Shown: positions 3,865 to 59,963 of the stretch, piece by piece
Layout of the letters: each line of letters begins with the position of its first letter
Numbering within the stretch: the first letter of the stretch is position 1
DNA from: Eutreptiella sp. 'Long Island Sound 2002'
Taxonomy: Eukaryota; Euglenozoa; Euglenophyceae; Eutreptiales; Eutreptiaceae
Length of the DNA: 64,000 nt
Direction: 5' to 3'
Assembly (NCBI GenBank): GCA_964036045.1
Contig: OZ038390.1
Coordinates: 41,920,525-41,984,524 of the forward strand
The notes under the pieces: model-generated
The model's database searches: none
Seen by the model: the letters and a program-made list of their open reading frames with translations, nothing else
What the model was told of the DNA's origin: nothing
Program-made: the position numbers and the translations under genes

Positions 3865-3899
3865 ACAGCGCACCTTCGCTGAAGGAGAAGCCCGCAGTC

Positions 3900-6836: not shown

Positions 6837-6910
6837 GTGTGTACCATCGACGCGACGTGGGTTCCGCTTCTGCATTGGTGCGCCGCACTTTCTCCATTTC
6901 TCTTCTTTAG
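6837..6910 (+). other. intron 3 of element gene 2, without the palindrome
   Basis: This 74-bp intron has donor GTGTGTA and acceptor TTCTTTAG. It joins an exon ending ...RPEK to one starting KDMRTRKEVAALG with matching phase 1. It is the only one of the four introns lacking the GC-rich palindrome. Confidence 0.6.
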
Positions 6911-7610: not shown

Positions 7611-7674
7611 GTATAATTCCCTCATTACGTCCGTTCTTTGCGCGGGGCCTCGCGCAATAACTTCTCCCTTGCAG
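7611..7674 (+). other. intron 4 of element gene 2, with central palindrome
   Basis: This 64-bp intron has donor GTATAATT and acceptor CCTTGCAG, phase 0. The palindrome variant TTGCGCGGGGCCTCGCGCAA fills 7,638-7,657, about a third of the intron. Confidence 0.65.
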
Positions 7675-26100: not shown

Positions 26101-29100
26101 CTGGGCACTAAATCGCTTGGACCAGCCCTGCAGCGGTGCAGGGCTGCAGTGGGTACACCTGCATGGGGGCAGGGGGGGCCATGGAAGGCATTCAAGGTGC
26201 GGCATCTGTGGGGAGGGAATGGCCTCCCCACGGGGGGGCCGTCCCCTCGCTTTTAGACGCGACTCCCCCCCTAGTAGAAGTGGGCCGAAGGCCCCTAGGG
26301 GGGGGGGGGGGGGGGGGGGGGGGGGGATTGGAGGGGGGTTTCAGGGAGGGGCGATGGGGGGGGGGGGGGGCGGTCGGGAGGGTCAGTTGGGGGGGGGGGG
26401 TCCAGGTGGGGCGATTTGGGGTGGTGGGGGGGGGGGCACAGGCTCCCGTTACCTCCCCTTGGCCTCCCTCTGGGGTGAGAGCTGGGGCTAGGGTTAGGGT
26501 CACCGAGCTGGTGGAACCAGTCTTGGTTTTATAACCCTTTTTAGGGTCTAGGGTGGACCTACCAGGTTTAGCAGCAGCAGCAACAAGCAGCAAGCAGCAA
26601 CAAGCAGCACGCGCGAAATGGGGAAAAATCAGACATCCGTCGTGGTGCTTCACATTCGGCTGAAATTTTGGTGGAGATACCTATGGGTGTGAGGGACAAC
26701 CACACAAAGTTTGAGCCAGAAACTCAATGGTGGCGGCCGGGAATGGGTGTCGCAAGTGGCGGACCTCGGTTTCAAAAACTGCAATTTAGGGCCAAAAACA
26801 GCCATTTTTGGGCCAAAAGAGCCCTAGAACCCATTCAAAACGGCCAAGGAAAGGGAAAGGGTGGGTGCACTCCATGTGCGGCTTGACTTTCTTGTGTCAA
26901 CGAGCCATTTGCGGCCCTCTGACTCCACCATATGTCCCGGAAACGGCCCAAAAAGGCCCCCACAAGCCCCAAATTTTGTGCAGATTGGCTGGCGACAGCC
27001 ACAAACCAAGAATAGGCCATATCTTTGGCTACATGGCTCAAAACGCGATTCCGAGGGCACCTAATCCACCCGCAACCCCCCTCGTTTTGTGGTTTCCACC
27101 CCTCAAAATTGCCCAAATGGACGCCTAGACCCCCGTACCCAAGCCCACTAGGCTGCGGCAAGCTGCAAGCTCAAGCCCAAACAGGTGGGTGCCCAAATGG
27201 GTCAATAGGGTCCAATAGGGGCAGAAAAATGACTTTTCTCAAAAATGATCCTAGACCATGTGTGATGCTAAAACAAGTGTTTTTGGACTGTTTTGAGCTT
27301 GGGGTGGCCCATTTTGGTCCTCCGAAAATCCCAAAATGCCTTGAAGATGCGCTGTTTTGGGACCAAAAATGGGTCAAAAATGGGTCAAAAACGCATTTTT
27401 CCAAAACTCATCCTAGACCATTTGGGGTGCACAAACGGGTGAAATGAGCCTATTTTGAGCCCATTTTGGGGCATTTTGGCCCCTCACAAGTCCACAAAAG
27501 CCTTGAAAGTGGGCCTTGTGGTGAAGGGGATCACTTGCAAGCCGATTCCACCCTGTCAACGGCCTTCAATGTGTAACTCATTGGTGTCCCTCACCATTCA
27601 TATCTAATGTTCCCTCCCCCACCAGCTCGGTCCCAATATTCAGTCTTGATTAGGGTTAGGGTCACCGAGCTGGTGGAACCAGTCTTGGTTTTATAACCCT
27701 TTTTAGTGTCTAGGGTGGACCTACCAGGTTTAGCAGCAAGCAAGCAAGCAAGTAGCAAGCAGCACGCGCGAAATGGGGAAAAATCAGAACTCCATCGTGG
27801 TGCTTCAGATTCAGGTGAAATTTTGGTGGATGATACCTATGGGTGTGAAGTACAATCACACAAAGTTTGAGCAAAGAACTCAACGGTGGCGACCGGGAAC
27901 GGGATTCGCAAGTGGCGGACCTCGGTTTCAAAAACTGCAGTTTAGGGCCAAAAATAGCCATTTTTGGGCCAAAAAAGCCCTGGAACACATTCAAAACGGC
28001 CAAATGACGGGGAACGGTGGGTACAGTCCACGTGCGGCTTGACTTCCCCGTGTCAACGAGCTCTTTGCGGCCCTCTAACTCCATGATATGTCCCGGAAAC
28101 GGCCCAAAAAGCCCGCAGAAGCTGCAAATGCCGACAGCCACAAACCAAGAATAGGCCAAATCTTTGGCTACATGGCTCAAAATGCGATTCCGAGGGCACC
28201 TACTTCATCCGCAACCCCCCACGTTTTGTGGTTTCCACCCCTCAGAATTGCCCAAACGGACGCCTAGACCCCAATACCTAGGCCCACTAGGGTGCGGCAA
28301 GCTGCAAGCTCAAGCCCAAAGAGGTAGGTGCCCAAATGGGTCAACAGGGTCCAGTAGGGGCAAAAAGATGACTTTTCTCAAAAATGATCCTAGACCATGT
28401 GCGACGCTAAAACAAGTGCTTTTGGACCGTTTTGAGCTTGTGGTGGCCCATTTTGGTCCTCCGAAAATCCCAAAATGCCTTGAAAATGGGCTGTCTTGGG
28501 ACCAAAAATGGGTCAAAAATGGGTCAAAAACGCATTTTTCCAAACCTCAGCCTAGACCATTTGGGGTGCACAAACGGGTGAAATGAGCCCATTTTGAGCC
28601 CATTTTGGGGCATTTTGGCCCCTTAGAAGTCCAAAAAGCCTTGAAAGTGGGCCTTGTGGTGATGGGGTTCACTTGCAAGCTGATTTCACTTTGTCAAGAG
28701 CCATCAATGTGTGAATCATTCTTGATGTCCCTCACCAGTCATAGCCGATGTTCCCTCCCCCACCAGCTCGGTCCCAATATTCAGTCTTGATTAGGGTTAG
28801 GGTTAGGGTTAGGGTCACCGAGCTGGTGGAACCAGTCTTGGTTTTATAACCCTTTTTAGGGTCTAGGGTGGACCTACCAGGTTTAGCAGCAAGCAGCAAC
28901 AAGCAGCACGCGCGAAATGGGGAAAAATCTGACATCCGTCGTGGTGCTTCACATTCGGCTGAAATTTTGGTGGATGATACCTATGGGTGTGAGGGACAAC
29001 CACACAAAGTTTGAGCCAGAAACTCAATGGTGGCGGCCGGGAATGGGTGTCGCAAGTGGCGGACCTCAGTTTCAAAAACTGCAATTTAGGGCCAAAAACA

Positions 29101-32100
29101 GCCATTTTTGGGCCAAAAGAGCCCTAGAACCCATTCAAAACGGCCAAGGAAAGGGAAAGGGTGGATGCACTCCATGTGCGGCTTGACTTTCTTGTGTCAA
29201 CGAGCCATTTGCGGCCCTCTGACTCCACCATATGTCCCGGAAATGGCCCAAAAAGGCCCCCACAAGCCCCAAATTTTGTGCAGATTGGCTGGCGACAGCC
29301 ACAAACCAAGAATAGGCCATATCTTTGGCTACATGGCTCAAAACGCGATTCCGAGGGCACCTAATCCACCCGCAACCCCCCTCGTTTTGTGGTTTCCACC
29401 CCTCAAAATTGCCCAAATGGACGCCTAGACCCCCGTACCCAAGCCCACTAGGCTGCGGCAAGCTGCAAGCTCAAGCCCAAACAGGTGGGTGCCCAAATGG
29501 GTCAATAGGGTCCAATAGGGGCAGAAAAATGACTTTTCTCAAAAATGATCCGAGACCATGTGTGATGCTAAAACAAGTGTTTTTGGACTGTTTTGAGCTT
29601 GGGGTGGCCCATTTTGGTCCTCCGAAAATCCCAAAATGCCTTGAAGATGCGCTGTTTTGGGACCAAAAATGGGTCAAAAATGGGTCAAAAACGCATTTTT
29701 CCAAAACTCATCCTAGACCATTTGGGGTGCACAAACGGGTGAAATGAGCCTATTTTGAGCCCATTTTGGGGCATTTTGGCCCCTCACAAGTCCACAAAAG
29801 CCTTGAAAGTGGGCCTTGTGGTGAAGGGGATCACTTGCAAGCTGATTCCACCCTGTCAACGGCCTTCAATGTGTAACTCATTGGTGTCCCTCACCATTCA
29901 TATCGAATGTTCCCTCCCCCACCAGCTCGGTCCCAATATTCAGTCTTGATTAGGGTTAGGGTCACCGAGCTGGTGGAACCAGTCTTGGTTTTATAACCCT
30001 TTTTAGTGTCTAGGGTGGACCTACCAGGTTTAGCAGCAAGCAAGCAAGCAAGTAGCAAGCAGCACGCGCGAAATGGCTAAAAATCAGACCTCCATCGTGG
30101 TGCTTCAGATTCAGGTGAAATTTTGGTGGATGATACCTATGGGTGTGAAGTACAATCACACAAAGTTTGAGCAAAGAACTCAACGGTGGCGGCCGGGAAC
30201 GGGATTCGCAAGTGGCGGACCTCGGTTTCAAAAACTGCAGTTTAGGGCCAAAAATAGCCATTTTTGGGCCAAAAAAGCCCTGGAACGCATTCAAAACGGC
30301 CAAATGACGGGGAACGGTGGGTACACTCCACGTGCGGCTTGACTTCCCCGTGTCAACGAGCTCTTTGCGGCCCTCTAACTCCATGATATGTCCCGGAAAC
30401 GGCCCAAAAAGCCCGCAGAAGCTGCAAATGCCGACAGCCACAAACCAAGAATAGGCCAAATCTTTGGCTACATGGCTCAAAATGCGATTCCGAGGGCACC
30501 TACTTCATCCGCAACCCCCCACGTTTTGTGGTTTCCACCCCTCAGAATTGCCCAAACGGACGCCTAGACCCCAATACCTAGGCCCACTAGGGTGCGGCAA
30601 GCTGCAAGCTCAAGCCCAAAGAGGTAGGTGCCCAAATGGGTCAACAGGGTCCAGTAGGGGCAAAAAGATGACTTTTCTCAAAAATGATCCTAGACCATGT
30701 GCGACGCTAAAACAAGTGCTTTTGGACCGTTTTGAGCTTGTGGTGGCCCATTTTGGTCCTCCGAAAATCCCAAAATGCCTTGAAAATGGGCTGTCTTGGG
30801 ACCAAAAATGGGTCAAAAATGGGTCAAAAACGCATTTTTCCAAACCTCAGCCTAGACCATTTGGGGTGCACAAACGGGTGAAATGAGCCCATTTTGAGCC
30901 CATTTTGGGGCATTTTGGCCCCTTAGAAGTCCAAAAAGCCTTGAAAGTGGGCCTTGTGGTGATGGGGTTCACTTGCAAGCTGATTTCACTTTGTCAAGAG
31001 CCATCAATGTGTGAATCATTCTTGATGTCCCTCACCAGTCATAGCTGATGTTCCCTCCCCCAACAGCTCGGTCCCAATATTCAGTCTTGATTAGGGTTAG
31101 GGTTAGGGTTAGGGTCACCGAGCTGGTGGAACCAGTCTTGGTTTTATAACCCTTTTTAGTGTCTAGGGTGGACCTACCAGGTTTAGCAGCAAGCAAGCAA
31201 GCAAGCAGCAAGCAGCACGCGCGAAATGGCTAAAAATCAGACCTCCATCGTGGTGCTTCAGATTCAGGTGAAATTTTGGTGGATGATACCTATGGGTGTG
31301 AAGTACAATCACACAAAGTTTGAGCAAAGAACTCAACGGTGGCGGCCGGGAACGGGATTCGCAAGTGGCGGACCTCGGTTTCAAAAACTGCAGTTTAGGG
31401 CCAAAAATAGCCATTTTTGGGCCAAAAAAGCCCTGGAACACATTCAAAACGGCCAAATGACGGGGAACGGTGGGTACAGTCCACGTGCGGCTTGACTTCC
31501 CCGTGTCAACGAGCTCTTTGCGGCCCTCTAACTCCATGATATGTCCCGGAAACGGCCCAAAAAGCCCGCAGAAGCTGCAAATGCCGACAGCCACAAACCA
31601 AGAATAGGCCAAATCTTTGGCTACATGGCTCAAAATGCGATTCCGAGGGCACCTACTTCATCCGCAACCCCCCACGTTTTGTGGTTTCCACCCCTCAGAA
31701 TTGCCCAAACGGACGCCTAGACCCCAATACCTAGGCCCACTAGGGTGCGGCAAGCTGCAAGCTCAAGCCCAAAGAGGTAGGTGCCCAAATGGGTCAACAG
31801 GGTCCAGTAGGGGCAAAAAGATGACTTTTCTCAAAAATGATCCTAGACCATGTGCGACGCTAAAACAAGTGCTTTTGGACCGTTTTGAGCTTGTGGTGGC
31901 CCATTTTGGTCCTCCGAAAATCCCAAAATGCCTTGAAAATGGGCTGTCTTGGGACCAAAAATGGGTCAAAAATGGGTCAAAAACGCATTTTTCCAAACCT
32001 CAGCCTAGACCATTTGGGGTGCACAAACGGGTGAAATGAGCCCATTTTGAGCCCATTTTGGGGCATTTTGGCCCCTTAGAAGTCCAAAAAGCCTTGAAAG

Positions 32101-35100
32101 TGGGCCTTGTGGTGATGGGGTTCACTTGCAAGCTGATTTCACTTTGTCAAGAGCCATCAATGTGTGAATCATTCTTGATGTCCCTCACCAGTCATAGCTG
32201 ATGTTCCCTCCCCCAACAGCTCGGTCCCAATATTCAGTCTTGATTAGGGTTAGGGTTAGGGTTAGGGTCACCGAGCTGGTGGAACCAGTCTTGGTTTTAT
32301 AACCCTTTTTAGTGTCTAGGGTGGACCTACCAGGTTTAGCAGCAAGCAAGCAAGCAAGCAGCAAGCAGCACGCGCGAAATGGCTAAAAATCAGAACTCCA
32401 TCGTGGTGCTTCAGATTCAGGTGAAATTTTGGTGGATGATACCTATGGGTGTGAAGTACAATCACACAAAGTTTGAGCAAAGAACTCAACGGTGGCGGCC
32501 GGGAACGGGATTCGCAAGTGGCGGACCTCGGTTTCAAAAACTGCAGTTTAGGGCCAAAAATAGCCATTTTTGGGCCAAAAAAGCCCTGGAACACATTCAA
32601 AACGGCCAAATGACGGGGAACGGTGGGTACAGTCCACGTGCGGCTTGACTTCCCCGTGTCAACGAGCTCTTTGCGGCCCTCTAACTCCATGATATGTCCC
32701 GGAAACGGCCCAAAAAGGCCGCAGAAGCTGCAAATGCCGACAGCCACAAACCAAGAATAGGCCAAATCTTTGGCTACATGGCTCAAAATGCGATTCCGAG
32801 GGCACCTAGTCCACCCGCAACCCCCCACTTTTTGTGGTTTCCACCCCTCAGAATTGCCCAAACGGACGCCTAGACCCCAATACCTAGGCCCACTAGGGTG
32901 CGGCAAGCTGCAAGCTCAAGCCCAAAGAGGTGGGTGCCCAAATGGGTCTACAGGGTCCATTAGGGGCAAAAAGATGACTTTTCTCAAAAATGATCCTAGA
33001 CCATGTGCAACGCTAAAACAAGTGTTTTTGGACCGTTTTGAGCTTGTGGTGGCCCATTTTGGTCCTCCGAAAATCCCAAAATGCCTTGAAAATGGGCTGT
33101 CTTGGGACCAAAAATGGGTCAAAAATGGGTCAAAACCGCATTTTTCCAAACCTCAGCCTAGACCATTTGGGGTGCACAAACGGGTGAAATGAGCCCATTT
33201 TGAGCCCATTTTGGGGCATTTTGGCCCCTCAGAAGTCCAAAAAGCCTTGAAAGTGGGCCTTGTGGTGATGGGGTTCACTTGCAAGCTGATTTCACTTTGT
33301 CAAGAGCCATCAATGTGTGAATCATTCTTGATGTCCCTCACCAGTCATAGCCGATGTTCCCTCCCCCACCAGCTCGGTCCCAATATTCAGTCTTGATTAG
33401 GGTTAGAGTTAGGGTTAGGGTTAGGGTCATGGGTAGGGTTAGGTGTAGGGTTAGGAGCAGGCTGAGGGTTGGGGTGGGCGTTAGAGTCAAGATTGGGTTC
33501 AAGTATAGCGTTGGGGTGCTCCACCGCCTGGGCGGGGAGGGATGCTACGTGGGCAAGGGGAATGAAAAAAAAATTTTCGGGCGCCTTCGGCGCCACCATA
33601 TGTATGGTCAGTAGCCATTGACCCTTGGTAACTAAGTGGGCCCGGAGGGCCCGAATGGGGGGGGGGGGGGAGTCGCGTACCGGGACCGAGGAGACGGCCC
33701 CCCCGTGGGCCTCCCGTTGGCGCCGTTGGCACTAAGCTGGTCCAGGAGTGCCCCACCATTGGGCGCTGCACAGTGATGGCAGATAGAATTGATGATGGGC
33801 ACCTTTGCTCCCGTGCTGTATGGGCCTGGCAGTAAGTGCTGAGGCTGGGCCTCAGGGCGTGGGCGTGACCACAGGGCCAAACGCACCTGTGGCTTGGTGG
33901 GGGTTGCTGAATTGAGATGTTCCGAGGAAAGGAGCTGTTGCTGTTGGTGGTGCAGATGAGGAGGCCCTGCAGTTGAGTTGATTTGGTGGTACAACGGGGT
34001 AAGGGGAGGGTTGGGTTGGGTTGGGTTGTCTGGTCTCACAGCCGCCCAGACTGTTTAACGGTCCCTGAACCCCACCAAAGTGCTGATGGGAGGGAGATAC
34101 CGCCATGCTTGTCTGTGTTGCCTGCGTGTGTCCTTTGGGGTGGGGGGGGGAGGGCGGCAGGTGTCCAGTGCCGCTACACGTTTCTGGCTTGTGTTTTGGT
34201 CTGGCCATATCCCTCACCTGCGCCCTGCCACTTGCCAACAGGCACTGCACAATATGGATGCTGTTGCGAGTGTTGCGGAGGGAGGGGGGAGCCCGGCCCA
34301 CCTCTTTCGCTTCAACGCTTCGCCCCTGCCTGTCTTTCCAAAACAAAACCAGATGATGACATGTCCTTTGGGATCCAGCTGCAGAGCGAGCGGGTGCAGG
34401 TGACTTGGCACCTTCCCTCGAGGGACCAACATTTCTCCTGGGACCCAATGCTACCACCAACACCAGGGCTGCTGCAGCAACAGCGCAGCAGACACACCAG
34501 CACCTGAGACCAGAGTGTTTGCTTTTTACCAGAAAAAAAAAGCAAGGGGCTGTCCAGAAGTGAAACCCCCACCCCTTTGTTTCAAGCACCAAAATAATAG
34601 CAAGCATGCCAAATGTGTGGTGCTGTGGAATGTTTCAGGGCAAGGGCCGGTCCCGATGTACTCTGAGCACCCCCAAAAAGGCAGATGCACACACGTTCAT
34701 ATCCTACCCCCAAAATGCAAAACACATAAAAGCGCCTCATAATATGAGGGGAGGGGGTTTCGTCCATTCTTCTAGACAGAAAGAGAGTGGTGGTTTTGTA
34801 TTGTCGCCTATTTGGACGCTGACGACGGCCGTTTTGAGCCCCCTGTGGCAGTTGGAAAGATGACAATGGCTTCTAGGCTACCTGGGGGCAAATGTGGGGC
34901 AACCGATGGTGGCTATGTGCCAGGCGACTGCAGTTGGACCGGAAGTTTTTTCAATAACATTTTAAGAACAGCACTGTCGAGTGCACGAACAAACGCCGCC
35001 CCAGATCTTACAATTTGATTTCGTTCGCAATACACTTCCAATGTCCATCATCAGCCACCCCAGACATCACAACCATTTCCCTTGCTCACTGCGAATCAAG

Positions 35101-41100: not shown

Positions 41101-44100
41101 CGGGGGGAGGGGGGCTGACCTTCCTCCTCCTGAGCACGGGCCTCCTTCGCCCTGTGTCACCCCGTCCTCGTGGTGCCTGCGGGCAATGCTCCTGATGCAC
41201 CGCAAAATCATGTGCGGAGGCACTGCGTGGCACACAACGTCGTCACTCATCCCTCATCAGAGCGTTGATTGGATCCGGTGGCACAACGACTGTACCCGTA
41301 GTCAGAGCCGCATGCGTCTGACCACTAACACACCTTTTGTTTGACATCCTTCGGCTGCAAAAAGAAGTCGCGGGTCACTGCATATGTGTCTTGAATCACT
41401 GCGTCGGGGATGCCGTGGCCCACGACCTTAAAAAAGCCCCACTCTTGGCACGCCTGTCAAACGGGACGCCGGTGTAGCACTGCACGGAGGTTGCGGAGTC
41501 AGGGCACACCATAATGCAAGGCCCAAAATGAAAAGACGGGGGGCTCGAACTCTTTGGAAAGCCTCAGCCGACCACAGCGACTATTGTTGATTGTTTCACC
41601 AACCGATCCGGTGACCATTGGCTGACGTGGCTCAGTGGCAACTGAGCGGTCCCCCCCCCCCCTGCGCAAGCACGGCCCATGTGAAGGAAAACAACGGTCA
41701 GACGGTCAGACCCGCGCTGAGACAAGGATGGGCCTACCATGCCCCCCCTTGCCAATGGCCTGGGCCAAGATTCTTCTTTCCCGGAAAGGAGGGCATTGAC
41801 AGTGGGCGTCATGACCCTTTATTCCTGGTGGGGGGGCCATTGGCATGTAGGAAGGAGGGCCATTGGCTCCGAGTATTATCAAAAAGTTTCAAAAAAAACT
41901 GGCGTGTGAGCATTTTCTCGCCCGTGCATCTTGTTGAGGCATTGTTTGGATGCATCCCTTCTAGGGCACACATCTTTTGAATGGTTGTAGGTCTCACTTC
42001 CCTCCATTTTTTAGCGACTCACCTGTCATGCATGAAAAGCACTCTCTAGTTATCAATATCCCTAGGCAGCTCCTGTATGGGAAGCAGACACGTCAGCTCG
42101 CTGGGGTTTGGAAGTCCCCAGGTCTGGGCAGCTCCTGCATGGGCAACATGCAATATGCAATATTGTTTAAACAAAGACCAAAAGCATTTCCATCCATGAT
42201 ATACTTCCCCTTCATGACCAAAATAATCTTGTGTGTCCAATGGGCAACATTTGGCAGCTCGAAAATAAACCAAAACACGGGATTCTTCAACAAAAAATCC
42301 TTCGGGGGGCCAAGATTCTTCGTTCCTAAAAGGGGGGCCATTGACACGGGGGGCCATGATTCTTCATTCTGGTTGGGGGGCCATTGGCATGGGGGGGGCA
42401 TTGGCAAGGGGGGGGGGGGGGGTGGTACTTGCGCTGAGCAGGTCTTTGGCCACAGGTTCTGACGTGAACGTCCCAATTCATTGCAGCTTGTGCAGACATG
42501 GGCTGCACTCCCAGGCGGAGGGTTGGTCTAAGCAGACATGCCATGTTGCATGCGGGACCCAGCCCCTGTCGCTGACCACGCAGCGCTCAAATCCACGTCA
42601 TCTTACATGCTCAACCACCAAAACTGTGGTCAGGAAAATGATAGGCAGATGGGGTCATCGCGCTGAGACAGCGCTGTCCAAGGCACTTTTAAAAAAATGT
42701 CTTGACACTTTGTGGGTCTGACATGCGATGCTATAACAACCGCTGGCAGATCCAAATAGGGTATGAGAATCCAGCCATACAGTGAAGCACATAGGGGAAG
42801 GCCTTGCTGTTTTAGGGGTGGGGGGGTAATCCACAAGGGCATAGGAAGGAAACTGGTATTATTACAAGCACTAGTTTCAAGCCAAAGAAGACGTGCAGGG
42901 GGAGGGTACATGCTCAATCAAAGAAGAATGACTGAAAGAACCCCAAGTCTTAAGAATGGCCCTCGTGTGAGCACCTCTGCCATCTTCCGCACCAATCATT
43001 CGTTTAAGTCCTTCCCTTTTGTCCCCTACCTCCAAAAGACACCGGTTTTTGCTGATGTTTTGGGGGCTGTCACTCCACATCACAGATCTCACCACCGCTC
43101 CAATGGGGATGGGGTACCAGCCACTGCTGTGGACATGAGCCCCCTGCCGGAGCCCAGAAATTGGCGTAAGCAGCGCGCCGTGTTGTTCAGACCACGGGGG
43201 CTACCGCAAGCCAATGTGTGACCCCGAGGGGCATGCAACCGTTTTGGGGGTTGTACGGGGGGCGCTATCATCATTCAAACTGCAACAGTTCTTGTGTTCG
43301 AGAGGATATGCTATGGACAATCTAGATGAAGCACAACGTATTCATCCGTCATAAAACTGCATCCATATCTACAATCAAACTGCAACTATCGTGCTTGTTC
43401 ACCTGATGACTTATATATCGGCATGTGCTGCCTTCATGCTACATACTGTGTGTCTTACCTCCCACTGCTACCGTGATCAAGCACTCCTTCGGCTCTCAGT
43501 TGCTGTGGTAGTCCTATGGTGTGTTCTGCCGTGTGTCTGTGTGTTCCATTGCTGTTGCTGTCTCATGGTGCTGTGGTCAGTGCATATGGCTGTAGTGCGT
43601 AGTTGGTGCGAGGGGGCCGGAGGCCCAGCCTCTCGTTTTAAATTTCTGCTTGGACGCTTCGTTCCTGTGTATTGTGGTGCAAAAGCAGGGTTTTGCGGCA
43701 AGTACCCCAGCGGCAGCGCAGCCGGCTGCCGCACTGAAGACGGGGGTTCGAATCCCCCTCAGCAGGCGAGCTGAGGGGGAATACGAGGAGGAGATGCGGT
43801 TCCGGAGCCGCAAGGTGGCACCGGTGGTGGAGCGCGCTGCTGCAGGTGTGTGGTGGCGGATGCCTTTTTGTTGCACTCTCAGGTATAACTGACACTGATC
43901 TGTGACATAACTCAGTGTGAAAAACTATGAGGACGAGACACGCCACCCGTCGCACCGGCGGTACCGGTGGTGGAGCGGGATGCTGAAGGGGGCGGTGGCG
44001 GAGGCCTCACCAACGGGCCCCTGGACGGACAGACGAACCGGGGTTCGAACCCCCGACCACGACGAGCGCCAGCCATGGCGCATACCACTAGACCATCCAT

Positions 44101-47100
44101 GTCTCTTACCCTAAATGACGCGAATTTCGCATATACCGTATACGAAAACTCTCTCAGGGGCGGGGATCGTGCCATTCATCGTGCCAAGTAGGGGCAGCAT
44201 AATACTGAGGTGCAGGGGGCCTATGCGCTAGTCTGATGGAAACAGGTGTTTACGGCGTTTCCGCCTGGGGACTGACACGTCTGTACTCGCAGAGGAGTCA
44301 GAATCACTGCCCATAGAGATAGTTTCGTCATCGGAGTCAAATCTCAGTGGGGCAACACTCGTATCTGAGCCCGTAGGCGTGGAAAAACCCTCAGGAAGGG
44401 ACCTGTCACAAGGGGTATGCAACAGCTGCAGGTCCAGTGCAGTGAGTAGCTGTGTGGCTGGGCTGGTGCCCAAGGGGATCACTCCGGGAGTGTGTGCAGG
44501 AGATGGTCGGGGGTCCCTTGTAGGCAGAACAGGCGTGGCAGGTGTAACCGGTATGTGATCAGGAGCAAAGGTGTCAAAAATTACAGGTGGTGGGGATGGC
44601 TCTGTGTCCTCTGTGTCCGATTCAGACTCAGATTCGGAATCCGAGACCACAATGTGATTGCGGTCCTGTCTGCTGGGCTCAGTGGAGCATCTCACAGCGA
44701 TACGCTGTGGTGGCACAGAGCGCCTGATATGTTGTGTCATGGGTACGCTGGACTGCATGAGTAGTGGGCTGGACAATCGGCCCGTCTCAGCAAGTGCGTC
44801 CGCCTCCTCGTTACCTACAATCCCGACATGTGACGGAACTTTGATCCACTGTATCTCTCGATCCGATTTGTCAAGCTCTGCGAGGAGCTGTTTCCAAAGT
44901 TCTACGTTGCTGAGCGGGCCATTGGAGCCCACCCAGTTATTTAGTTCCCACTTCTTGGCTTTCCCATTTGCCCCCAGAAAAACAAGAGAGGAGTCAGTGC
45001 AGATGGCGATTTTCCCTGACGGGAAAAGCTTGATAGCCTGGATTGCTGCGTAGAGTTCGGCGGTATTGTTAGTCTGTCGCAGACCTGGGGGGAGATGGGC
45101 ACCTATGGCATGCAGGCCCGGGGCATAAATGCCATATCCTCCAACATAGCCAATTTTGGCCACCTTTTCAGAAGAACCATCAGTGTAGATAATGTGAAAC
45201 CCCTGGTCCTCGAGTTCACATATGAGGGCTTCAAGTTTGGCAGAGTCTCGCATAGCTCTGTCAAGTTTGTTTTGTTGTCTTCGTTGTGCTTTCGAAATAG
45301 GGGGGGTGGGTGGGGCAGGGTTCAGATTGGGGTGAACCAGTTTCCCTTCATTCAAGAGTGAAGAGAGAGACTTTGCAAAAAGCGAAATATCATTGGGGGT
45401 TGTACGGGGGGGGAGGGGGGCTTGGTTGACCCAAACCTTGGGGGTCGGTGGGTTGGGCGGTCAGCTGCCGGGCTCCCCAGGGGTGGTCGGTGGGTACCCC
45501 AACATACATACCTCAAAATGATCCCCATGACGCGCTGATCATTTTAAATGTACACAAGTGGGATAAAATTTTTTTTCAAAAAAAATTGCCCATCAACTTA
45601 GGCTCCCATCAGCCAAGGTCCGGCCTGGAGGTCTGGTGGTGGTCAAAATCCTTTTTTGTGTTTTTCATCCATTTTTGAAATCTCCACAAAATTCTGAGTA
45701 TTTTGAGTATAGACGAATAGTGTCAAACAAAAAATTTCCCCCTGCCATATGCCTAAAACAAAATCTCCGGCGCCCACAAAACCCATTGTTCCATACAACC
45801 ATTTTGGGGTCTGTAGAGGGGTCGCCCCCCCCCCCCCCCCCCCCCCCCTTTGAGGTTGGGCCCTGGCCGGGAGCAGCCCCCGTGGTTCAGACCAGGGCGT
45901 AGTCAGTGCATCACAGCGCACATAGTGCATTGACGACAAGATGTGATGTGTTGTTCTCAAAGCGGGGCAAAACGTGCCAAAAATTTCAGCACACCCCCAT
46001 CCTCGTTCCTTGCACAAGGAAGCAGGTTGAAGGAGCTGCACCGCAGAGAGCGCAAAATCTCTGATGGCAAAAAAAAAAAGCAACGCTGAATTCCATGGCT
46101 CAGAACTTGTGGGAAACTGCACGTCGTGTTGATTGGACATGTGGGTTGCTTGGGCAAAAGGGGAGGAGGGGTCAGACTTGCACGAAAAGCAATAATCGCA
46201 ATTTAGCCTGTGCCGCCACTCAACGGCGTGACCCGCTTTGGGCCTTCTGATGTGCCATGGTCCTCGCTGGGGCTCCCGTGTCAGCCTTCGTTTTGCAGCT
46301 GAACCCCTGCCAGCCTGAGGCATCTGATTTCCAACGTGCATCACGTGCCCTACGCAGTGACCACACAGGGCCAGGCTGGTGCCGGGTAACCCTTCGGTGC
46401 CCTCCAGTGGCTGGACCCACCCGTTGAGTTCTCTCGTAGTCGTCAGGGAGACCTTCATGTTGCGCATGCCCTTTTGCCCACAGTTGAATGTTCCATATGT
46501 CAGGGGCGTAACGTCTGCCCAGTGCCGCGGGCGCCCTGGTAGAGGACGCACAGTGCCTGCACCGGGGTACGCGGACCCTCTCAGCTCTGATTGCAGGACG
46601 CACTGTTTGACATCATGGAGGGAAGTGTTGGAAAAAAAAAAGGAACAACCAATGCGCACAACGCCACGGGTGGACAAAATCAGGATTCAGCACTTATCCA
46701 GTGGCTGAGCACCGAGCAGTCGTTTGCCGGTGTCCGTAACTCACACAGATATCGAGAAGGGATTACCATGTGCAAGCATGGGCTTCTTGAAATCTGGTGG
46801 CACGGCGCTTTCACTACTTCTCAGAATTCTGTTAGTCTTATTTCGAACGAGAGATCAGCAATCGAGCAGTCTTGTGTGAATTGAAGTTAGTTTAGCAGTA
46901 CATCCAATCCAGAAAATGTCATCCAAATGCAATCTTGAGTACATGGCACTGCTCTTTATGTCCGCAACGAGATACCTACACCAGTCTTGATAGATGTGGG
47001 GGTTCCGGCTTTGTGGTTTGTGATTTGCGCCACGCATTGCGATGGACTGGTGAAGGGGTTCAGCCAAGCATTTTGCCTATCTATGGATGGGGGGGGGGAG

Positions 47101-48244: not shown

Positions 48245-48279
<35 letters not shown>

Positions 48280-48761
48280 GGGTATTGCCATTTTTACCAG
48301 GTCTCCCGGATTAGCCCGTATGGCCACTCTGGCGTCCTCGGGTCGGGTCACTCCCATCGAAGCAGGCCCACTGCGGGCTCAGGGTGCGTCCCTGTGTTAC
48401 CCCTCGACCAGTGTGATATGCACTCTGGACCAGAACCTGGCTCGCTGCCCCAGGACCACCCTGGAAGTGAGGGTGGCAGCTCCGTGGCTTCCGCTGGGCC
48501 AGCTCCACGGTAATGGTTCAACGAGCCTGTCATGGCCATGTTGCCCCGTGTGTTGTGTGTGTGATGGGGCAATCACAGCTGGTGGTGCTCGCGGCAGCGA
48601 GGCGGCATCCATGCCTACTCATTCAGCGACTTTCCCAGAAAGGATGCCCTTGACGCACGGCTGCCGCCGCCCGCCTCCAGGCACGCCCACTCCGGGAATC
48701 GAACCCATGACCTCTCGGGTGCGAGTCCTACGCTTAGCCCGGTTGAGTTAGCCGGGGATCC

Positions 48762-48803
<42 letters not shown>

Positions 48804-50555: not shown

Positions 50556-50769
50556 CTATACCCCACGGGGGGGCGACTACAACCGGTCCTGATGCGACCC
50601 ACCCCCCAACTATCTTTCAAAACTCGGGGGGGGGGGGGGGGGTCCAGCCGGGGATCGGGGGGGTGTTCCTGCCGGGGGTCGGGGGGGGGGGGGTCTGGCT
50701 GGGGGTCATGGGGGTGTCCAGCCAGGGGTGAAAGGGGGGGGGGTTAGGGTTAGGGCTAGGGTTAGGGTC

Positions 50770-53700
50770 ACCGAGCTGGTGGAACCAGTCTTGGTTTTAT
50801 AACCCTTTTTAGTGTCTAGGGTGGACCTACCAGGTTTAGCAAGCAAGCAGCAAGCAGCAAGCAGCAAGCAGCAAGCAGCACGCGCGAAATGGGCCAAAAT
50901 CAGAACTCCGTCGTGGTGCTTTGGATTTGAGTGAAATTTTGGTGGATGATACCTATGGGTGTGAAGTACAATCACACAAAGTTTGAGCAAGAAACTTGAC
51001 AGTGGTGGCCGGGAACGGGATTCGCAAGTGGCGGACCTCAGTTTCAAAAACTGCATTTTAGGGCCAAAACAGCCATTTTTCGGCCAAAAAAGCCCTAGAA
51101 CACTTTCAAAACGGCCAAACGAAGGGAAACGGTGGCTACACTGCATGTGCGGCTTGACTTCCCCGAGTCAACGAGCTCTTTGCCGCCCTCTAACTCCATG
51201 ATATGTCCCGGAAACGGCCTAAAAAGGCCCCCAGAAACAAACCAAGAATAGGCCATATCTTTGGCTACATGGCTCAAAATGCGATTCCGAGGGCACCTAT
51301 TCCACCCGCAACCCCCCACTTTTTGTGGTTTCCACCCCTCAGAATTGCCCAAAGGGACGCCTAGACCCCAATGCCTAGGCCCACTAGGCTGCGGCAAGCT
51401 GCAAGCTGAAGCCCAAACAGGTGGTTGCCCAAATGGGTCAACAGGGTCCAGTAGGGGCAAAAAGATGACTTTTCTCAAAAATGATCCTAGACCATGTGCG
51501 ACGCTAAAACAAGTGTTTTTGGACCGTTTTGAGCTTGTGGTGGCCCATTTTGGTACTCCGAAAATCCCGAAATGCCTTGAAACTGGGCTGTTTTGGGACC
51601 AAAAATGGGTCAAAAATGGGTCAAAAACGCATTTTTCCAGACCTCATCCTAGACCATTTGGGGTGCACAAACGGGTGAAATAGGCCCATTTTGAGCCCAT
51701 TTCGGGGGCATTTTGGCCCCTCAGAAGTCCAAAAAGCCTTCAACGTGGGCCTCGTGGCACCCCGTAATGCGTGAAACAAGGAACATGCAACACTTGACAG
51801 GCACACAATAGCCGGATAGAGACATCAATTTTTTGGTACAGGTATGTGGCAGGAAGTACAATGCATTGTACATATGCATCGATTTGCTCATAACAAGAGA
51901 AAGAGGAACGGGATCGCGGTGAAGCGAAAGCCGAGCGCAGACGTCAACACGAAGCTTGGGGAGCACATTCATTCCGAGTGGAGTACGGGGTTAGGTTGCT
52001 CGCTTCAAGGTTAGGATGAACGTGGTCCAATGTTGGAACTCATGCAGTCGAAAATGAATGGGATCGCGGTGAAGCGAAAGCCATTTGCAAACACATAAAA
52101 GGGGAGGGGGATACGAACCAAACAGTGCAATTCGTGCAATAATGGGATCGCGGTGAAGCGAAAGCCATTTGCAAACTCAGAAGGAGGGAGGGGAAGACAA
52201 AACATTCAGTGACATTCATGCAATAATGGGATCGCGGTGAAGCGAAATCCAATTGCCAAGGCAAAAAGAGGGGAGGGATTACGGAACACACAACCACATG
52301 CATGCAACCCTCAATCGCCATCATTAACCTACAGTCAATCAATGACATACATGCAAGATCATTAACCTACCTGACGCACGGGAGCAGATATCTGGTGGTT
52401 AGGGGAACACTGAACACACAATGACACAAGGCGGACTTTTTAACTTCTCTATCTACCTATCACGCACAAGAGCAAATGTTGGAACTCATGCAGTCGAAAA
52501 TGAATGGGATCGCGGTGAAGCGAAAGCCATTTGCAAACACATAAAAGGGGAGGGGAATACAAAACAGACAGTGCAATTCGTGCAATAATGGGATCGCGGT
52601 GAAGCGAAAGCCATTTGCAAACTCAAAAGGAGGGAGGGGAAAACAAAACATGCAGTGACATTCATGCAATAATGGCATCACGATGAAGCGAAAACCAGTT
52701 GCCAATGCAAAATGAGGGGAGAGGAATACGAAACACACAACAACATGCATGCAACCCTCAATCGCCATCCCCCAACCAATTGACTTTCCTCCACCCTAGT
52801 ACGCACAGAAGCATAGGCACTACCCCACCAGCTCGGTCCCAATATTCAGTCTTCATTAGGGTCACCGAGCTGGTGGAACCAGTCTTGGTTTTATAACCCT
52901 TTTTAGTGTCTAGGGTGGACCTACCAGGTTTAGCAAGCAAGCAGCAAGCAGCAAGCAGCAAGCAGCAAGCAGCACGCGCGAAATGGGCCAAAATCAGAAC
53001 TCCGTCGTGGTGCTTCGGATTCGGGTGAAATTTTGGTGGATGATACCTATGGGTGTGAAGTACAATCACACAAAGTTTGAGCAAGAAACTCAACGGTGGC
53101 GGCCGGGAACGGGATTCGCAAGTGGCGGACCTCAGTTTCAAAAGCTGCAGTTTAGGGCCAAAAACAGCCATTTTTGGGCTTAAGAAGCCCTGGAACACAT
53201 TCAAAACGGCCAAACAAAGGGAAACGGTGGGTACACTCCACGTGCGGCTTGACTTCCCCATGTCAACGAGCTCTTTGCGGCCCTCTAACTCCATGATATG
53301 TCGTGGAAACGGCCCAAAAAGGCCCCCAGAAGCTCCAAATGCCGACAGCCACAAACCAAGAATAGGCCATATCTTTGGCTACATGGCTCAAAATGCGATT
53401 CCGAGGGCACCTACTCCACCCGCAACCCCCCACTTTTTGTGGTTTCCACCCCTCAAAATTGCCCAAATGGACGTCTAGACCCCCATACCTAGGCCCACTA
53501 GGTTGCGGCAAGCTGCGAGCTCAAGTGTCTAGGGTGGACCTACCAGGTTTAGCAAGCAAGCAGCAAGCAGCAAGCAAGCAGCACGCGCGAAATGGGCCAA
53601 AATCAGAACTCCGTCGTGGTGCTTCGGATTCGGCTGAAATTTTGGTGGATGATACCTATGGGTGTGAAGTACAATCACACAAAGTTTGAGCAAGAAACTC

Positions 53701-56700
53701 AACGGTGGCGGCCGGGAACGGGATTCGCAAGTGGCGGACCTCAGTTTCAAAAACTGCAGTTTAGGGCCAAAAACAGCCATTTTTGGGCTTAAAAAGCCCT
53801 AGAACACATTCAAAACGGCCAAACAAAGGGAAACGGTGGGTACACTCCACGCGCGGCTTGACTTCTTCATGTCAACGAGCTCTTTGCGGCCCTCTAACTC
53901 CATGATATGTCGTGGAAACGGCCCAAAAAGGCCCCCAGAAGCTCCAAATGCCGACAGCCACAAACCAAGAATAGGCCATATCTTTGGCTACATGGCTCAA
54001 AATGCGATTCCGAGGGCACCTACTCCACCCGCAACCCCCCACTTTTTGTGGTTTCCACCCCTCAAAATTGCCCAAATGGACGTCTAGACCCCCATACCTA
54101 GGCCCACTAGGTTGCGGCAAGCTGCAAGCTCAAGCCCAAACAGGTGGGTGCCCAAATGGGTCAACAGGGTCCAGTAGGGGCAAAAGAAAGACTTTTCTCA
54201 AAAATGATCCTCAACCATGTGCGACGCTAAAACAAGTGTTTTTGGACCGTTTTGAGCTTGTGGTGGCCCATTTTGGTACTCCGAAAATCCCAAAATGCCT
54301 TGGAAATGGGCTGTTTTGGGACCAAAAATGGGTAAAAAATGGGTCAAAAACGCATTTTTCCAAACCTCATCCTAGACCATTTGGGGTGCACAAACGGGTG
54401 AAATGAGCCCATTTTGAGCCCATTTTGGGGTATTTTGGCCCCTCAGAAGTCCAAAAAGCCTTGAAAGTGGGCCTCGTGGTGATGGGGTTCACTTGCAAGC
54501 CGATTCCACTTTGTCAAGAGCCATCAATGTGTGAATCATTCTTGGTGTCCCTCACCAGTCATAGCTGATGTTCCCTCCCCCACCAGCTCGGTCCCAATAT
54601 TCAGTCTTGATTAGCCCTAGGGTTAGGGTCACCGAGCTGGTGGAACCAGTCTTGGTTTTATAACCCTTTTTAGTGTCTAGGGTGGACCTACTAGGTTTAG
54701 CAGCAGCAGCAAGCAAGCAGCAGCAGCAAGCAAGCAAGCAGCACGCGCGAACTGGACAAAAATCAGAACTCCGTCGTGGTGCTTCGGATTCGGGTGAAAT
54801 TTTGGTGGATGATACCTATGGGTGTGAAGTACAATCACACAAAGTTTGAGCAAGAAACTCAACGGTGGCGGCCGGGAACGGGATTCGCAAGTGGCAAACC
54901 TCAGTTTCAAAAGCTGCAGTTTAGGGCCAAAAACAGCATTTTTGGGCCAAAAAAGCCCTGGAACACATTCAAAGCGGCCAAACGAAGGGAAACAGTGGGT
55001 ACACTCCACGTGCGGCTTGACTTCCCCGTGTCAACGAGCTCTTTGCGGCCCTCTAACGCCATGATGTGTCCCAGAAACGGCCCAAAAAGGCCCCCAGAAG
55101 CTCCAAATACCGACAGCCACAAACCAAGAATAGGCCATATCTTTGGCGACATGGCTCAAAATGCGATTCCGAGGGCACCTACTCCACCCGCAACCCCCCA
55201 CTTTTTGTGGTTTCCACCCCTCAGAATAGCCTAAACGGACGCCTAGACCCCAATACCTAGGCCCACTAGGCTGCGGCAAGCTGCAAGCTCAAGCCCAAAC
55301 AGGTGGTTGCCCAAATGGGTCTACAGGGTCCAGTAGGGGCAAAAAGATGATTTTTCTCAAAAATGATCCTAGACCATGTGCAACGCTAAAACAAGTGTTT
55401 TTGGACCGTTTTGAGCTTGTGGTGGCCCATTTTGGTCCTCCGAAAATCCCGAAATGCCTTGAAACTGGGCTGTTTTGGGACCAAAAATGGGTCAAAAATG
55501 GCTCAAAAACGCATTTTTCCAAACCTCATCCTAGACCATTTGGGGTGCACAAACGGGTGAAATGAGCCCATTTTGAGCCCATTTTGAGCCCATTTTGGGG
55601 CATTTTGGCCCCTTAGAAGTCCAAAAAGCCTTCAAAGTGGGCCTTGTGGTGATGGGGTTCACTTGCAGGCTGATTTCACTTTGTCAAGAGCCATCAATGT
55701 GTAAATCATTCTCGATGTCCCTCACTAGTCATAGCTGATGTTCCCTCCCCCACCAGCTCGGTCCCAATATTCAGTCTTGATTAGGGTCACCGAGCTGGTG
55801 GAACCAGTCTTGGTTTTATAACCCTTTTTAGTGTCTAGGGTGGACCTACCAGGTTTGGCAAGCAAGCAGCAAGCAGCAAGCAGCAGCACGCGCGAAATGG
55901 GTAAAAATCAGAATTCCGTCGTGGTGCTTCCGATTCGGGTGAAGTTTTGGTGGATGATACCTATGGGTGTGAAGTACAATCACACAAAGTTTGAGCAAGA
56001 AACTCAACGGTGGCGGCCGGGAACGGGATTCGCAAGTGGCAGACCTCAGTTTCAAAAGCTGCAGTTTAGGGCCAAAAACAGCATTTTTGGGCCAAAAAAG
56101 CCCTGGAACACATTCAAAGCGGCCAAACGAAGGGAAACAGTGGGTACACTCCACGTGCGGCTTGACTTCCCCGTGTCAACGAGCTCTTTGCGGCCCTCTA
56201 ACGCCATGATGTGTCCCAGAAACGGCCCAAAAAGGCCCCCAGAAGCTCCAAATACCGACAGCCACAAACCAAGAATAGGCCATATCTTTGGCGACATGGC
56301 TCAAAATGCGATTCCGAGGGCACCTACTCCACCCGCAACCCCCCACTTTTTGTGGTTTCCATCCCTCAGAATAGCCTAAACGGACGCCTAGACCCCAATA
56401 CCTAGGCCCACTAGGCTGCGGCAAGCTGCAAGCTCAAGCCCAAACAGGTGGTTGCCCAAATGGGTCTACAGGGTCCAGTAGGGGCAAAAAGATGATTTTT
56501 CTCAAAAATGATCCTAGACCATGTGCGACGCTAAAACAAGTGTTTTTGGACCGTTTTGAGCTTGTGGTGGCCCATTTTGGTCCTCCGAAAATCCCAAAAT
56601 GCCTTGAAAATGGGCTGTTTTGGGACAAAAAATGGGTCAAAAACGCATTTTTCCAAACCTCATCCTAGACCATTTGGGGTGCACAAACGGGTGAAATGAG

Positions 56701-59285
56701 CCCATTTTGAGCATATTTGGGGCATTTTGGCCCCTCAGAAGTCCAAAAAGCCTTGAAAGTGGGCCTCGTGGTGATGGGGTTCACTTGCAAGCTGATTTCA
56801 CTTTGTCAAGAGCCATCAATGTGTGAATCATTCTTGATGTCCCTCACCAGTCATAGCTGATGTTCCCCCCCCCACCAGCTCGGTCCCAATATTCAGTCTT
56901 GATTAGGGTTAGGGCTAGGGTTAGGGTCACCGAGCTGGTGGAACCAGTCTTGGTTTTATAACCCTTTTTAGTGTCTAGGGTGGACCTACCAGGTTTAGCA
57001 GCAGCAGCAGCAGCAGCAAGCAGCAGCAGCAAGCAGCAGCAGCAAGCAGCAAGCAGCAGCACGCGCGAAATGGGTAAAAATCAGACCTCCGTCGTGGGGG
57101 TTCAGATTCGGGTGAAATTTTGGTGGATGATACCTATGGGTGTGAAGTACAATCACACAAAGTTTGAGCAAAGAACTCAACGGTGGCGGCCGGGAACGGG
57201 ATTCGCAAGTGGCGGACCTCAGTTTCAAAAGCTGCAGTTTAGGGCCAAAAACAGCCATTGTTGGGCTTAAAAAGCCCTAGAACACATTCAAAACGGCCAA
57301 ACGAAGGGAAACGGTGGGTACACTCCACGTGCGGCTTGACTTCCCCGTGTCAACGAGCTCTTTGCGGCCCTCTAACTCCATGATATGTCCAGGAAACGGC
57401 CTAAAAAGGCCCCCAGAAGCTCCAAATGCCGACAGCCACAAACCAAGAATAGGCCATATCTTTGGCTACATGGCTCAAAATGCGATTCCGAGGGCACCTA
57501 TTCCACCCACAACCCCCCACTTTTTGTGGTTTCCACCCCTCAAAATTGCCTAAACGGACGCCTAGACCCCCGTACCTAGGCCCGGTAGGCTGCGGCAAGC
57601 TGCTAGCTCAAACCGAAATAGGTGGGTGCCCAAATGGGTCATCAGGGTCCAACAGGGGCAAAAAGATGATTTTTCTCAAAAATGATCCTAGACCATGTGC
57701 GACGCTAAAACAAGTGTTTTTGGACCGTTTTGAGCTTGTGGTGGCCCATTTTGGTACTCCGAAAATCCCAAAATGCCTTGAAAATGGGCTGTTTTGAGAC
57801 CAAAAATGGGTCAAAAATGGGTCAAAAACGCATTTTTCCAGACCTCATCCTAGACCATTTGGGGTGCACAAACGGGTGAAATAGGCCCATTTTGAGCCCA
57901 TTTTGGGGGCATTTTGGCCCCTCAGAAGTCCAACAAAAGCCTTGAAAGTGGGCCTCGTGGTGAAGGGGATCACTTGCAAGCTGATTCCACTCTGTCAACG
58001 GGCTTCACTGTGTGCCTCATTGGTGTCCCTCACCATTCATAGGTGATGTTCCCTCCCCCACCAGCTCAGTCCCAATATTCAGTCTTGATAGGGATAGGGT
58101 TAGCCCTAGGTTAGGGTTAGGGTCACCGAGTTGGTGGAACCAGTCTTGGTTTTATAACCCTTTTTAGGGTCTAGGGTGGACCTACCAGGTTTAGCAGCAG
58201 CAGCAACAAGCAGCAAGCAGCAACAAGCAGCAAGCAGCACGCGCGAAATGGGGAAAAATCAGAATTCCGTCGTGGGACTTCACATTCGGCTGAAATTTTG
58301 GTGGATGATACCTATGGGTGTGAGGGACAACCACACAAAGTTTGAGCGAGAAACTCAATGGTGGCGGCCGGGAACGGGTGTCGCAAGTGGCGGACCTCAG
58401 TTTCAAAAACTGCAATTTAGGGCCAAAAACAGCCATTTTTGGGCCAAAAGAGCCCTAGAACCCATTCAAAACGGCCAAGGAAAGGGAAAGGGTGGGTGCA
58501 CTCCATGTGCGGCTTGACTTTCTTGTGTCAACGAGCCATTTGCGGCCCTCTGACTCCACCATATGTCTCGGAAACGGCCCAAAAAGGCCCCCACAAGCCC
58601 CAAATTTTGTGCAGATTGGCTGGCGACAGCCACAAACCAAGAATAGGCCATATCTTTGGCTACATGGCTCAAAATGTGATTCCGAGGGCACCTACTACAC
58701 CCGCAACCCCCCTCGTTTTGTGGTTTCCACCCCTCAAAATTGCCCAAATGGACGCCTAGACCCCCGTACCCAAGCCCACTAGGCTGCGGCAAGCTGCAAG
58801 CTCAAGCCCAAACAGGTGGGTGCCCAAATGGGTCAATAGGGTCCAATAGGGGCAGAAAAATGACTTTTCTCAAAAATGATCCTAGACCATGTGTGATGAT
58901 CCTAGACCAAGTGTTTTTGGACTGTTTTGAGCTTGGGGTGGCCCATTTTGGTCCTCCGAAAATCCCAAAATGCCTTGAAGATGCGCTGTTTTGGGACCAA
59001 AAATGGGTCAAAAATGGGTCAAAAACGCATTTTTCCAGACCTCATCCTAGACCATTTGGGGTGCACAAACGGGTGAAATGAGCCTATTTTGAGCCCATTT
59101 TGGGGCATTTTGGCCCCTCACAAGTCCACAAAAGCCTTGAAAGTGGGCCTTGTGGTGAAGGGGATCACTTGCAAGCTGATGCCACCCTGTCAACGGCCTT
59201 CAATGTGTAACTCATTGGTGTCCCTCACCATTCATATCTAATGTTCCCTCCTCCACCAGCTCGGTCCCAATATTCAGTCTTGATT
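50770..59285 (+). repeat. satellite array 2: seven ~1.15-kb units joined by TTAGGG-type repeats
   Basis: Units start at 50,770, 52,864, 53,526, 54,631, 55,789, 56,929 and 58,124. The first is interrupted by an 84-bp repeat block, the second is truncated and fused to the third inside the unit, and the last is subtype A; most others resemble subtype B. Junctions contain TTAGGG, CTAGGG and, at 54,612 and 58,102, opposed CCCTA/GGGTTA motifs. Internal (CAG)n/(CAAG)n length varies between units. Confidence 0.9.
51757..52824. repeat. 84-bp tandem repeats in two triplets, nested in satellite unit 1 of array 2
   Basis: The motif GGATCGCGGTGAAGCGAAA starts at 52,061, 52,145 and 52,229, then at 52,507 and 52,591, with a mutated copy at 52,675; the period is 84 bp. 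A single copy lies near 51,910. The two triplets with their flanks form a ~446-bp higher-order duplication. The block replaces roughly the last 110 bp of the satellite unit before its CCACCAGCTCGGT end. Confidence 0.85.
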
Positions 59286-59963
59286 AGGGTTAGGGCTAGG
59301 GTTGTGGTTGCTGGTAGGGCCTGCAACCCTCCTGTAGCCCTCCTTCAGGTCAAAAAATGTTTCTTGTTGTTTTAACACAAATATGATTTCTCTACAAAAT
59401 TTTGAGTATTTTGAGTATAAACACATAGTATGAAAAAAAAAATTGGCGCCTTCGGCGCCATAGAGTTTTCTCTAGGGACACTTGTTGGTGGCCGACCCGG
59501 CACCACTATCTTTCAAAACCCGGGGGGGGGGGAGGGGGGGGGGCTGGGGGGGGTCGCATACAAGGACCGGGCCCGGCCGCCCCCCCGTGCTATACCCATT
59601 CAGTAGGAATTCATTTTTTTTTGGGAAGACAAATTCACACCATATGGCAATCATATGTCAGAACTGGAAGTAGTGTGGGCAAGGACTATGACCGATCCAA
59701 TTTCAAAGCGTAAGCTACAAATGCTGCATTTAGTACTAAAGTGGGGGTCCACTTTTTTGGGGTTGGTTTTTTCTCCAATTCTACACCCATTTTGATTTCT
59801 TATTGTTAAGTAAATAACAATCAACCAGCCAAAAACCACCATCCATATATGACACAGACCCTCAAGGCACCATCGACCTACAACATAGACCCTCATGACA
59901 GTCAATACGGACCAAAAGCAGGGGATTGTTGATGATGCGGTCCAATGTGTTGCCCATGACTAA

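Follow-up and report, generated by a model that had tools for sequence, protein, structure and literature searches.

A 64,000-nucleotide stretch of the genome of the euglenid Eutreptiella sp. 'Long Island Sound 2002' (contig OZ038390.1, positions 41,920,525 to 41,984,524; hereafter the window) contains three elements, E1, E2 and E3, which most probably belong to a family of non-autonomous DNA transposons with terminal inverted repeats (TIRs) and a backbone of about 0.5 kb, two of the three members carrying arrays of a satellite whose ~1.15-kb monomers are separated by TTAGGG tracts. E1 (26229..33707, plus strand; 7,479 bp) holds six satellite monomers, E3 (50564..59589, plus strand; 9,026 bp) holds seven, whole or partial, and E2 (43193..45884, plus strand; 2,692 bp) comes to 543 bp once a nested long interspersed nuclear element (LINE) and one copy of the duplication around it are subtracted. 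All three start with CACGGGGG, end with CCCCCGTG and are flanked by a perfect 8-bp target-site duplication that differs from element to element: GGCCTCCC for E1 (26221..26228 and 33708..33715), GTTCAGAC for E2 (43185..43192 and 45885..45892) and CTATACCC for E3 (50556..50563 and 59590..59597). The register of the duplication is unambiguous in E1 and E3. TIRs together with a duplication of fixed length at three of three sites make E1, E2 and E3 TIR DNA transposons. The coordinates, termini and duplications reported in the initial annotation of this DNA were reproduced exactly, and its proposal of a non-autonomous transposon family with 8-bp duplications and satellite arrays inside two members is supported by the analysis below.

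Within the window, CACGGGGG occurs four times and CCCCCGTG three times. Perfect 8-bp duplications flank three of the four ordered CACGGGGG/CCCCCGTG pairs spaced 60 to 15,000 bases apart, and 3 of 493 pairs when the ends are loosened to CACGG/CCGTG, where 0.0075 would be expected by chance at 4^-8 per pair (our estimate). Neither set of pairs gave a duplication in 19 flank-shifted controls, which upholds the earlier claim that three such duplications are unlikely to have arisen by chance. With CACG/CGTG ends, 4 of 6,921 pairs are duplicated (shifted-control mean 0.3, maximum 2); CAC/GTG ends alone give 23 of 345,372, close to the control mean of 19.7, so the signal resides in the longer ends. 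A general scan of the window for TIRs with 8-bp duplications returned 60 pairs over threshold (9 and 17 in shifted controls), and the 12 best of these comprised the three elements, satellite periodicity and an inverted repeat near 3.3–9.0 kb, with no further element.

E1, E2 and E3 are grouped as one family because parts of a ~0.5-kb backbone are common to them. Cut for alignment without the array or the LINE, the backbones measure 567 bp (E1), 543 bp (E2) and 491 bp (E3), and all run in the same order from one TIR through a G-rich left arm and a right arm bearing an A-run and a GGCGCC motif to the other TIR. The element ends all read CACGGGGG(GG)C; in E1 and E3, a GCGACYC..CCCC motif ~30 bases in lengthens the terminal match to an imperfect TIR of ~45 bp, located in E1 at 26229..26272 (plus strand), where the match to the right end takes in the inner GCGACTCCCCCCC motif, and at 33657..33707 (minus strand). 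Right arms are 62.5% identical between E2 and E3, 65.0% between E1 and E3 and 58.2% between E1 and E2, and the left arms of E1 and E3 are 74.2% identical; the scores of the E2/E3 right, E1/E3 right and E1/E3 left arms were matched by 0 of 300 dinucleotide shuffles. A segment of the E2 right arm (45652..45736, plus strand) is 77.6% identical to E3 59360–59444, with which it has a GAGTATTTTGAGTATA motif in common, and the E2/E3 BLAST match has E = 1.4e-11 across 85 bp.

The right arms of E1 and E3 also contain a subterminal hairpin, GGCGCCTTCGGCGCC (33580..33594 in E1 and 59445..59459 in E3), which adjoins the A-run and is followed by a second hairpin. This 15-mer occurs twice in the window, once in each of the two elements, and the second hairpins differ in sequence. 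Both subterminal GGCGCC hairpin stretches fold better than their shuffles (z of -3.6 and -4.8). Hairpins formed by G/C runs within the TIRs were unconvincing, the four terminal stretches folded giving z from -0.99 to 1.49. Read on the minus strand, E1 33564–33594 and E3 59433–59459 have a strong hairpin followed by a T-run at equivalent positions, a terminator-like layout.

Copies at other loci were sought by treating database 'proteins' as translated DNA, both for the satellite and for the element border. A frame of the satellite matches 716 of 725 candidates (120 of these matches were listed, representing 906 sequences, and 14 were inspected). The border query was a minus-strand frame that reads outwards from the first monomer of E1 and crosses the left edge of the element, with words and score taken from residues 38–110, and it matches 461 of 628 candidates; the part beyond the border motif was read for all of the 120 matches listed. 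Sorted by patterns written after the sequences were read, with six E3-type identifiers assigned by hand, these 120 comprise 41 monomer–monomer junctions, 23 E1-type left arms, 6 E3-type arms, 24 with a third type of flank, 25 others and 1 unclassified. By eye, the patterns appear to have passed over an E1-type arm and a junction in P0154 and P0210. The satellite is joined to the arm in 22 of the 23 E1-type cases. The motif of the element edge is reached in 8 of the 120 matches listed (7 E1-type, 1 E3-type), one of which stops there while seven continue into flanking sequence; in a flank-only search, the control for high-scoring segment pairs (HSPs) that overrun the edge, these seven flanks matched neither one another nor the flanks of E1 and E3 at E<=1. 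The best HSPs of P0135, P0140, P0141 and P0149 finish at window position 26231, two bases inside the edge. The element edge thus lies at other loci beside different neighbours, as transposition predicts, in matches that show the left edge only, the target duplications lying outside their view. Together, the repeats and the element edges at other database loci suggest a transposon spreading satellite DNA.

One alternative is that G-rich palindromes have paired by chance in a region full of G and C runs, with no mobile family behind them; the empty flank-shifted controls, the backbone common to the elements and the edge motif in 8 of the 120 matches listed, seven with unrelated flanks, make its probability negligible. 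A number of observations do weigh against the transposon family as proposed. The right arms of E1 and E2 are weakly alike, their score being reached by 3 of 300 shuffles, and the left arms of E2 and E3 show no significant likeness, with 55 of 300 shuffles reaching the score; E2 would be assigned to the family by its ends, its duplication and the likeness of its right arm to that of E3. The edge motif pattern was devised after the sequences had been seen. Best HSPs overrun the edge by 25 and 10 bases in P0142 and P0146; those of P0137 and P0168 end short, with weaker, proline-rich HSPs overrunning by 32 and 40 bases, and the edge is also passed by weaker HSPs, again proline-rich, in P0135, P0140, P0141 and P0149. 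P0160 has a left arm of the E1 type but no satellite motif, and is perhaps an element with other contents. Some arrays need not lie in such elements, because the third type of flank, whose ends are out of view, accounts for 24 of the 120 matches listed. An 8-bp duplication around an array, moreover, does not prove that the whole array was present at insertion. No transposase, including one with the hAT dimerisation domain PF05699, was found in the 11 frames scanned against Pfam (of 112 frames of at least 120 aa in the window), and neither an autonomous copy nor an empty site was seen, no genome-wide search having been made.

The third flank is itself recurrent on the left of the satellite (..ALTLGSG..ECWGPKWRAM; P0159, P0190, P0193, P0194 and others) and possibly marks a further family of elements that carry this satellite. 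Beyond the protein database, in searches from which records of this organism's own genome may be excluded, satellite DNA patterns found no relative in viral contigs or genome contigs, a protein-guided scan of viral contigs gave 12 pattern matches, none of which held up, and a search among phages likewise yielded no relative.

The initial annotation had described the cargo as differing between the elements; satellite arrays do occur in two members, but E1 and E3 carry one and the same ~1.15-kb satellite, at an equivalent place and in the same orientation. The E1 array (26484..33426, plus strand) consists of six monomers of types A B A B B B with two or four TTAGGG units between them, and the E3 array (50744..59295, plus strand) has TTAGGG tracts at its bounds. 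Linkers in E1 are perfect and follow monomer type, with two units after both A copies and four after the three internal B copies; those of E3 often have fewer or degenerate units. All 11 monomer starts located by an exact motif come after TTAGGG in a single phase, and an inverted repeat, CCGAGCTGGTGG/CCACCAGCTCGG, lies inside the monomers near their two ends. TTAGGG is the telomere repeat of euglenids. In the window, 52 of its 59 copies fall within the three elements, which make up 30% of the sequence, compared with 1 of 13 copies of CCCTAA, and all 10 perfect runs of at least two TTAGGG units are in E1 or E3. The first monomer of E3 is interrupted by a block foreign to the satellite (51757..52822, plus strand), which includes 84-bp tandem repeats arranged as two copies of 295 bp that are 94% identical; by eye, there is no duplication at its edges.

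Within E1, the A copies are 99.4% identical and the B copies 98.4–99.7%, and A and B differ at about 91% identity. The last monomer of E3 is of type A (97.8–98.1% identical to the first and third monomers of E1). Across all pairs, E1 and E3 monomers are 89.9–98.1% identical, and a monomer tree, unrooted and including several E3 monomers that are partial or interrupted, intermixes the monomers of the two elements. Because the monomers are so much more alike than the arms (65–74%), exchange or homogenisation of the arrays must postdate the split between E1 and E3, unless arms evolve much faster. The AB pairs of E1 are ~99% alike and its linkers track monomer type, which together show tandem duplication.

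The 8 monomers that were compared, out of 13 counting partial ones, have an open frame of 143 aa. Its variable sites are spread evenly across codon positions (15/20/13), and single-difference codons are synonymous in 95 cases and nonsynonymous in 370, counts that pool all sequence pairs, so that events are not independent. With no coding constraint within the window, we rejected this frame as a gene and treat it as non-coding. Counter to this view, database relatives retain the frame at 51–60% identity, which could reflect selection by gene callers among many copies.

We propose that a backbone composed of the CACGGGGG end, a G-rich left arm, a right arm with an A-run (and a hairpin in two of three) and the CCCCCGTG end would be cut at CAC/GTG by a transposase supplied in trans and inserted at an 8-bp staggered cut. 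Such cut-and-paste movement would carry elements with the arrays inside them, the satellite travelling with its element, as the recurring arm–satellite junctions indicate. Arrays would grow and shrink by tandem duplication, of which the AB pairs in E1 are an instance, and recombination may move them from one element to another, the TTAGGG seams being the likely sites of crossing-over; E2 received a LINE insertion instead. Directly observed among these steps are the fixed ends with 8-bp duplications at three sites, the left edge recurring with different flanks, the arm–satellite junctions, the AB duplication and the nested LINE. A broader form of the proposal, in which CACGGGGG transposons are the main vehicle of satellite spread in the euglenid genome and TTAGGG tracts are the recombination seams that pass arrays between elements with long-diverged arms, is tentative, and we think it somewhat unlikely.

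An explanation that reverses the roles would make the 1.15-kb monomer itself mobile, targeting TTAGGG tracts in elements already in place, with the transposon merely a landing site. The single phase in which 11 of 11 motif-located starts follow TTAGGG, the inner inverted repeat, and arrays that appear younger than the arms would all suit such a monomer, as would linker lengths in the database junctions, which vary, by whole 6-bp units in 36 of the 41 among the matches listed. Tandem duplication nevertheless accounts for the E1 linkers and the near-identical AB pairs, the 22 satellite–arm combinations among the 120 matches listed fit inheritance over repeated insertion, and no coding signal is found within the monomer. 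We consider a self-mobile monomer improbable.

The genomes of euglenids are large and rich in repeats, and their annotation is poor. Carriage of satellite arrays several kilobases long by a TIR transposon would account for a satellite being dispersed rather than confined to blocks, and telomere-type seams between monomers would offer a concrete route for array exchange; if the seam reading is true, a telomere-type repeat now serves as a functional component of a DNA transposon. In assemblies of this kind, a TTAGGG tract is not always a telomere nor an open frame always a gene, and caution about open frames is warranted because the satellite frame, which has no coding signal here, matches 716 database 'proteins'.

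E2 is a 543-bp element resembling a miniature inverted-repeat transposable element (MITE) into which a 5'-truncated LINE was later inserted. The LINE fragment (43263..45392, minus strand) comprises an RNase H domain and the 3' part and is bounded by its own 19-bp target duplication, TTGGGGGTTGTACGGGGGG (43244..43262 and 45393..45411). Its C-terminal frame (44228..45392, minus strand) contains RNase H (PF00075, E=8.4e-25 for frame 44228–45460); the RNase H frame noted in the initial annotation was not captured as cargo. The same annotation had placed tRNA-like modules in this element; neither ARAGORN nor Rfam detected a tRNA in that stretch, which lies within the LINE copy. The inner edge of the 19-bp duplication falls at residue 22/23 of the RNase H frame, and clear identity to longer relatives begins, by eye, at residue 23. 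HSPs to these relatives begin at residues 24 (P0008), 15 (P0001) and 9 (P0002), those of P0001 and P0002 thus extending some residues beyond the inner edge. P0003, P0005 and P0009 start at 99, 140 and 196 and keep the C-terminus, starts that we infer to be truncations in the DNA rather than gene-model breaks. The 19-bp duplication, together with relatives cut at differing 5' points and keeping the C-terminus, is the basis for reading the insertion as a 5'-truncated LINE. P0001 has the reverse-transcriptase zinc motif zf-RVT upstream of RNase H at E=2e-4, under the Pfam curated cut-off; zf-RVT is unreported for P0002 and P0008, and none of the relatives retrieved bears a reverse-transcriptase domain. 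Among the 14 RNase H matches, the sole named one is from Eutreptiella gymnastica (46% identity).

As to superfamily, the family may be hAT and depend on a hAT transposase gene at another locus, an assignment that we rate only slightly below an even chance. The terminal consensus of hAT elements is YARNG, which CACGG fits at four of five positions, with C at the third where a purine is expected; CA..TG ends and 8-bp duplications are present in all three elements. According to the available passages of the papers cited here and below, hAT usually makes 8-bp duplications (PMC12730594), but so do Merlin (PMC8101967) and Zisupton (PMC12730594). Merlin is the sole DNA transposon of Euglena gracilis described in those passages: its two families there have 8-bp duplications, the length found in E1–E3 (8 or 9 bp being the criterion for Merlin), and some Merlins elsewhere contain tandem repeats (PMC8101967). 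The 5' TIRs of all Merlin families, new and earlier, begin with GG (PMC8101967), whereas six of six element ends here begin with CAC, which leaves Merlin very unlikely. CACTA/EnSpm (CMCT) transposons have the CAC..GTG ends but duplications of 2–5 bp (PMC12730594), against 8 bp at three of three sites, and were rejected. The KDZ group (Zisupton/Dileera) makes 8-bp duplications (PMC12730594), as found in E1–E3. Helitrons and Helentrons (HINE) were ruled out by perfect 8-bp duplications where none are expected. Nonconventional euglenid introns were also rejected, having CCAGG at +3 to +7 (PMC11170887) where the ends here read CACGGGG. Merlin, CACTA and Helitron thus each fail one tested feature, and hAT and KDZ remain candidates. 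No description of such a family was found among the titles and abstract openings listed from the Euglena literature on transposons, satellites, telomeres and introns, in which few subscription journals are represented.

Non-autonomous hAT elements and MITEs have short TIRs, CA..TG ends and a backbone of about 0.5 kb, as do E1–E3, from which they differ in the third terminal base and, for E1 and E3, in the several kilobases of satellite inside. Tetris foldback elements of Drosophila have long foldback TIRs, in contrast to the ~45 bp found here, where the array is internal. The likeness to hAT MITEs extends to the 8-bp duplication (PMC12730594 for the length), and Tetris elements, like those described here, are non-autonomous with internal tandem repeats able to seed satellites (PMC7492417). 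HINEs, or non-autonomous Helentrons, such as oyster Cg_HINE and Drosophila DINE-1, resemble E1 and E3 in placing short flanking modules around a central satellite-like array, in dispersing satellite-like DNA by transposition, and in the flanking or repetitive modules common to related elements (PMC7492417). Helentrons lack target duplications, whereas E1–E3 have TIRs and perfect 8-bp duplications, and the oyster monomers were chosen at 100–500 bp, in contrast to ~1.15-kb, TTAGGG-joined monomers (PMC7492417). Merlin elements of Euglena gracilis and dinoflagellates offer 8-bp duplications, a euglenid host and, in a Symbiodinium family, copies with a 163-bp tandem repeat; their TIRs begin with GG and the families described carry a transposase gene, whereas E1–E3 begin with CAC and none was seen (PMC8101967). 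In Diplonema, also a euglenozoan, a 20-kb dispersed repeat consists of about eight 2.5-kb tandem units (PMC10161547); its ends and target duplications are undescribed in the available passages, and the likeness is one of description only.

Elsewhere in the window, a 1.08-kb unit is present in three tandem copies (96–98% identical) at 10343–13585, and BLAST does not match it to the satellite of E1 and E3. A 5.7-kb element at 3320–8984 has 527-bp inverted repeats that are 97% identical and TCATT on both sides, a possible 5-bp target duplication; its four open frames (491, 189, 139 and 216 aa) matched no Pfam family. By eye, it is seated within the minus-strand gag-like region of a retrotransposon. 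On that strand, 44–433 and 9281–10708 contain a reverse-transcriptase piece (RVT_1, E=5e-7) and a gag-like frame, the latter recognised by eye with no supporting Pfam match, and the two are possibly parts of one long terminal repeat retrotransposon split by the 5.7-kb element.

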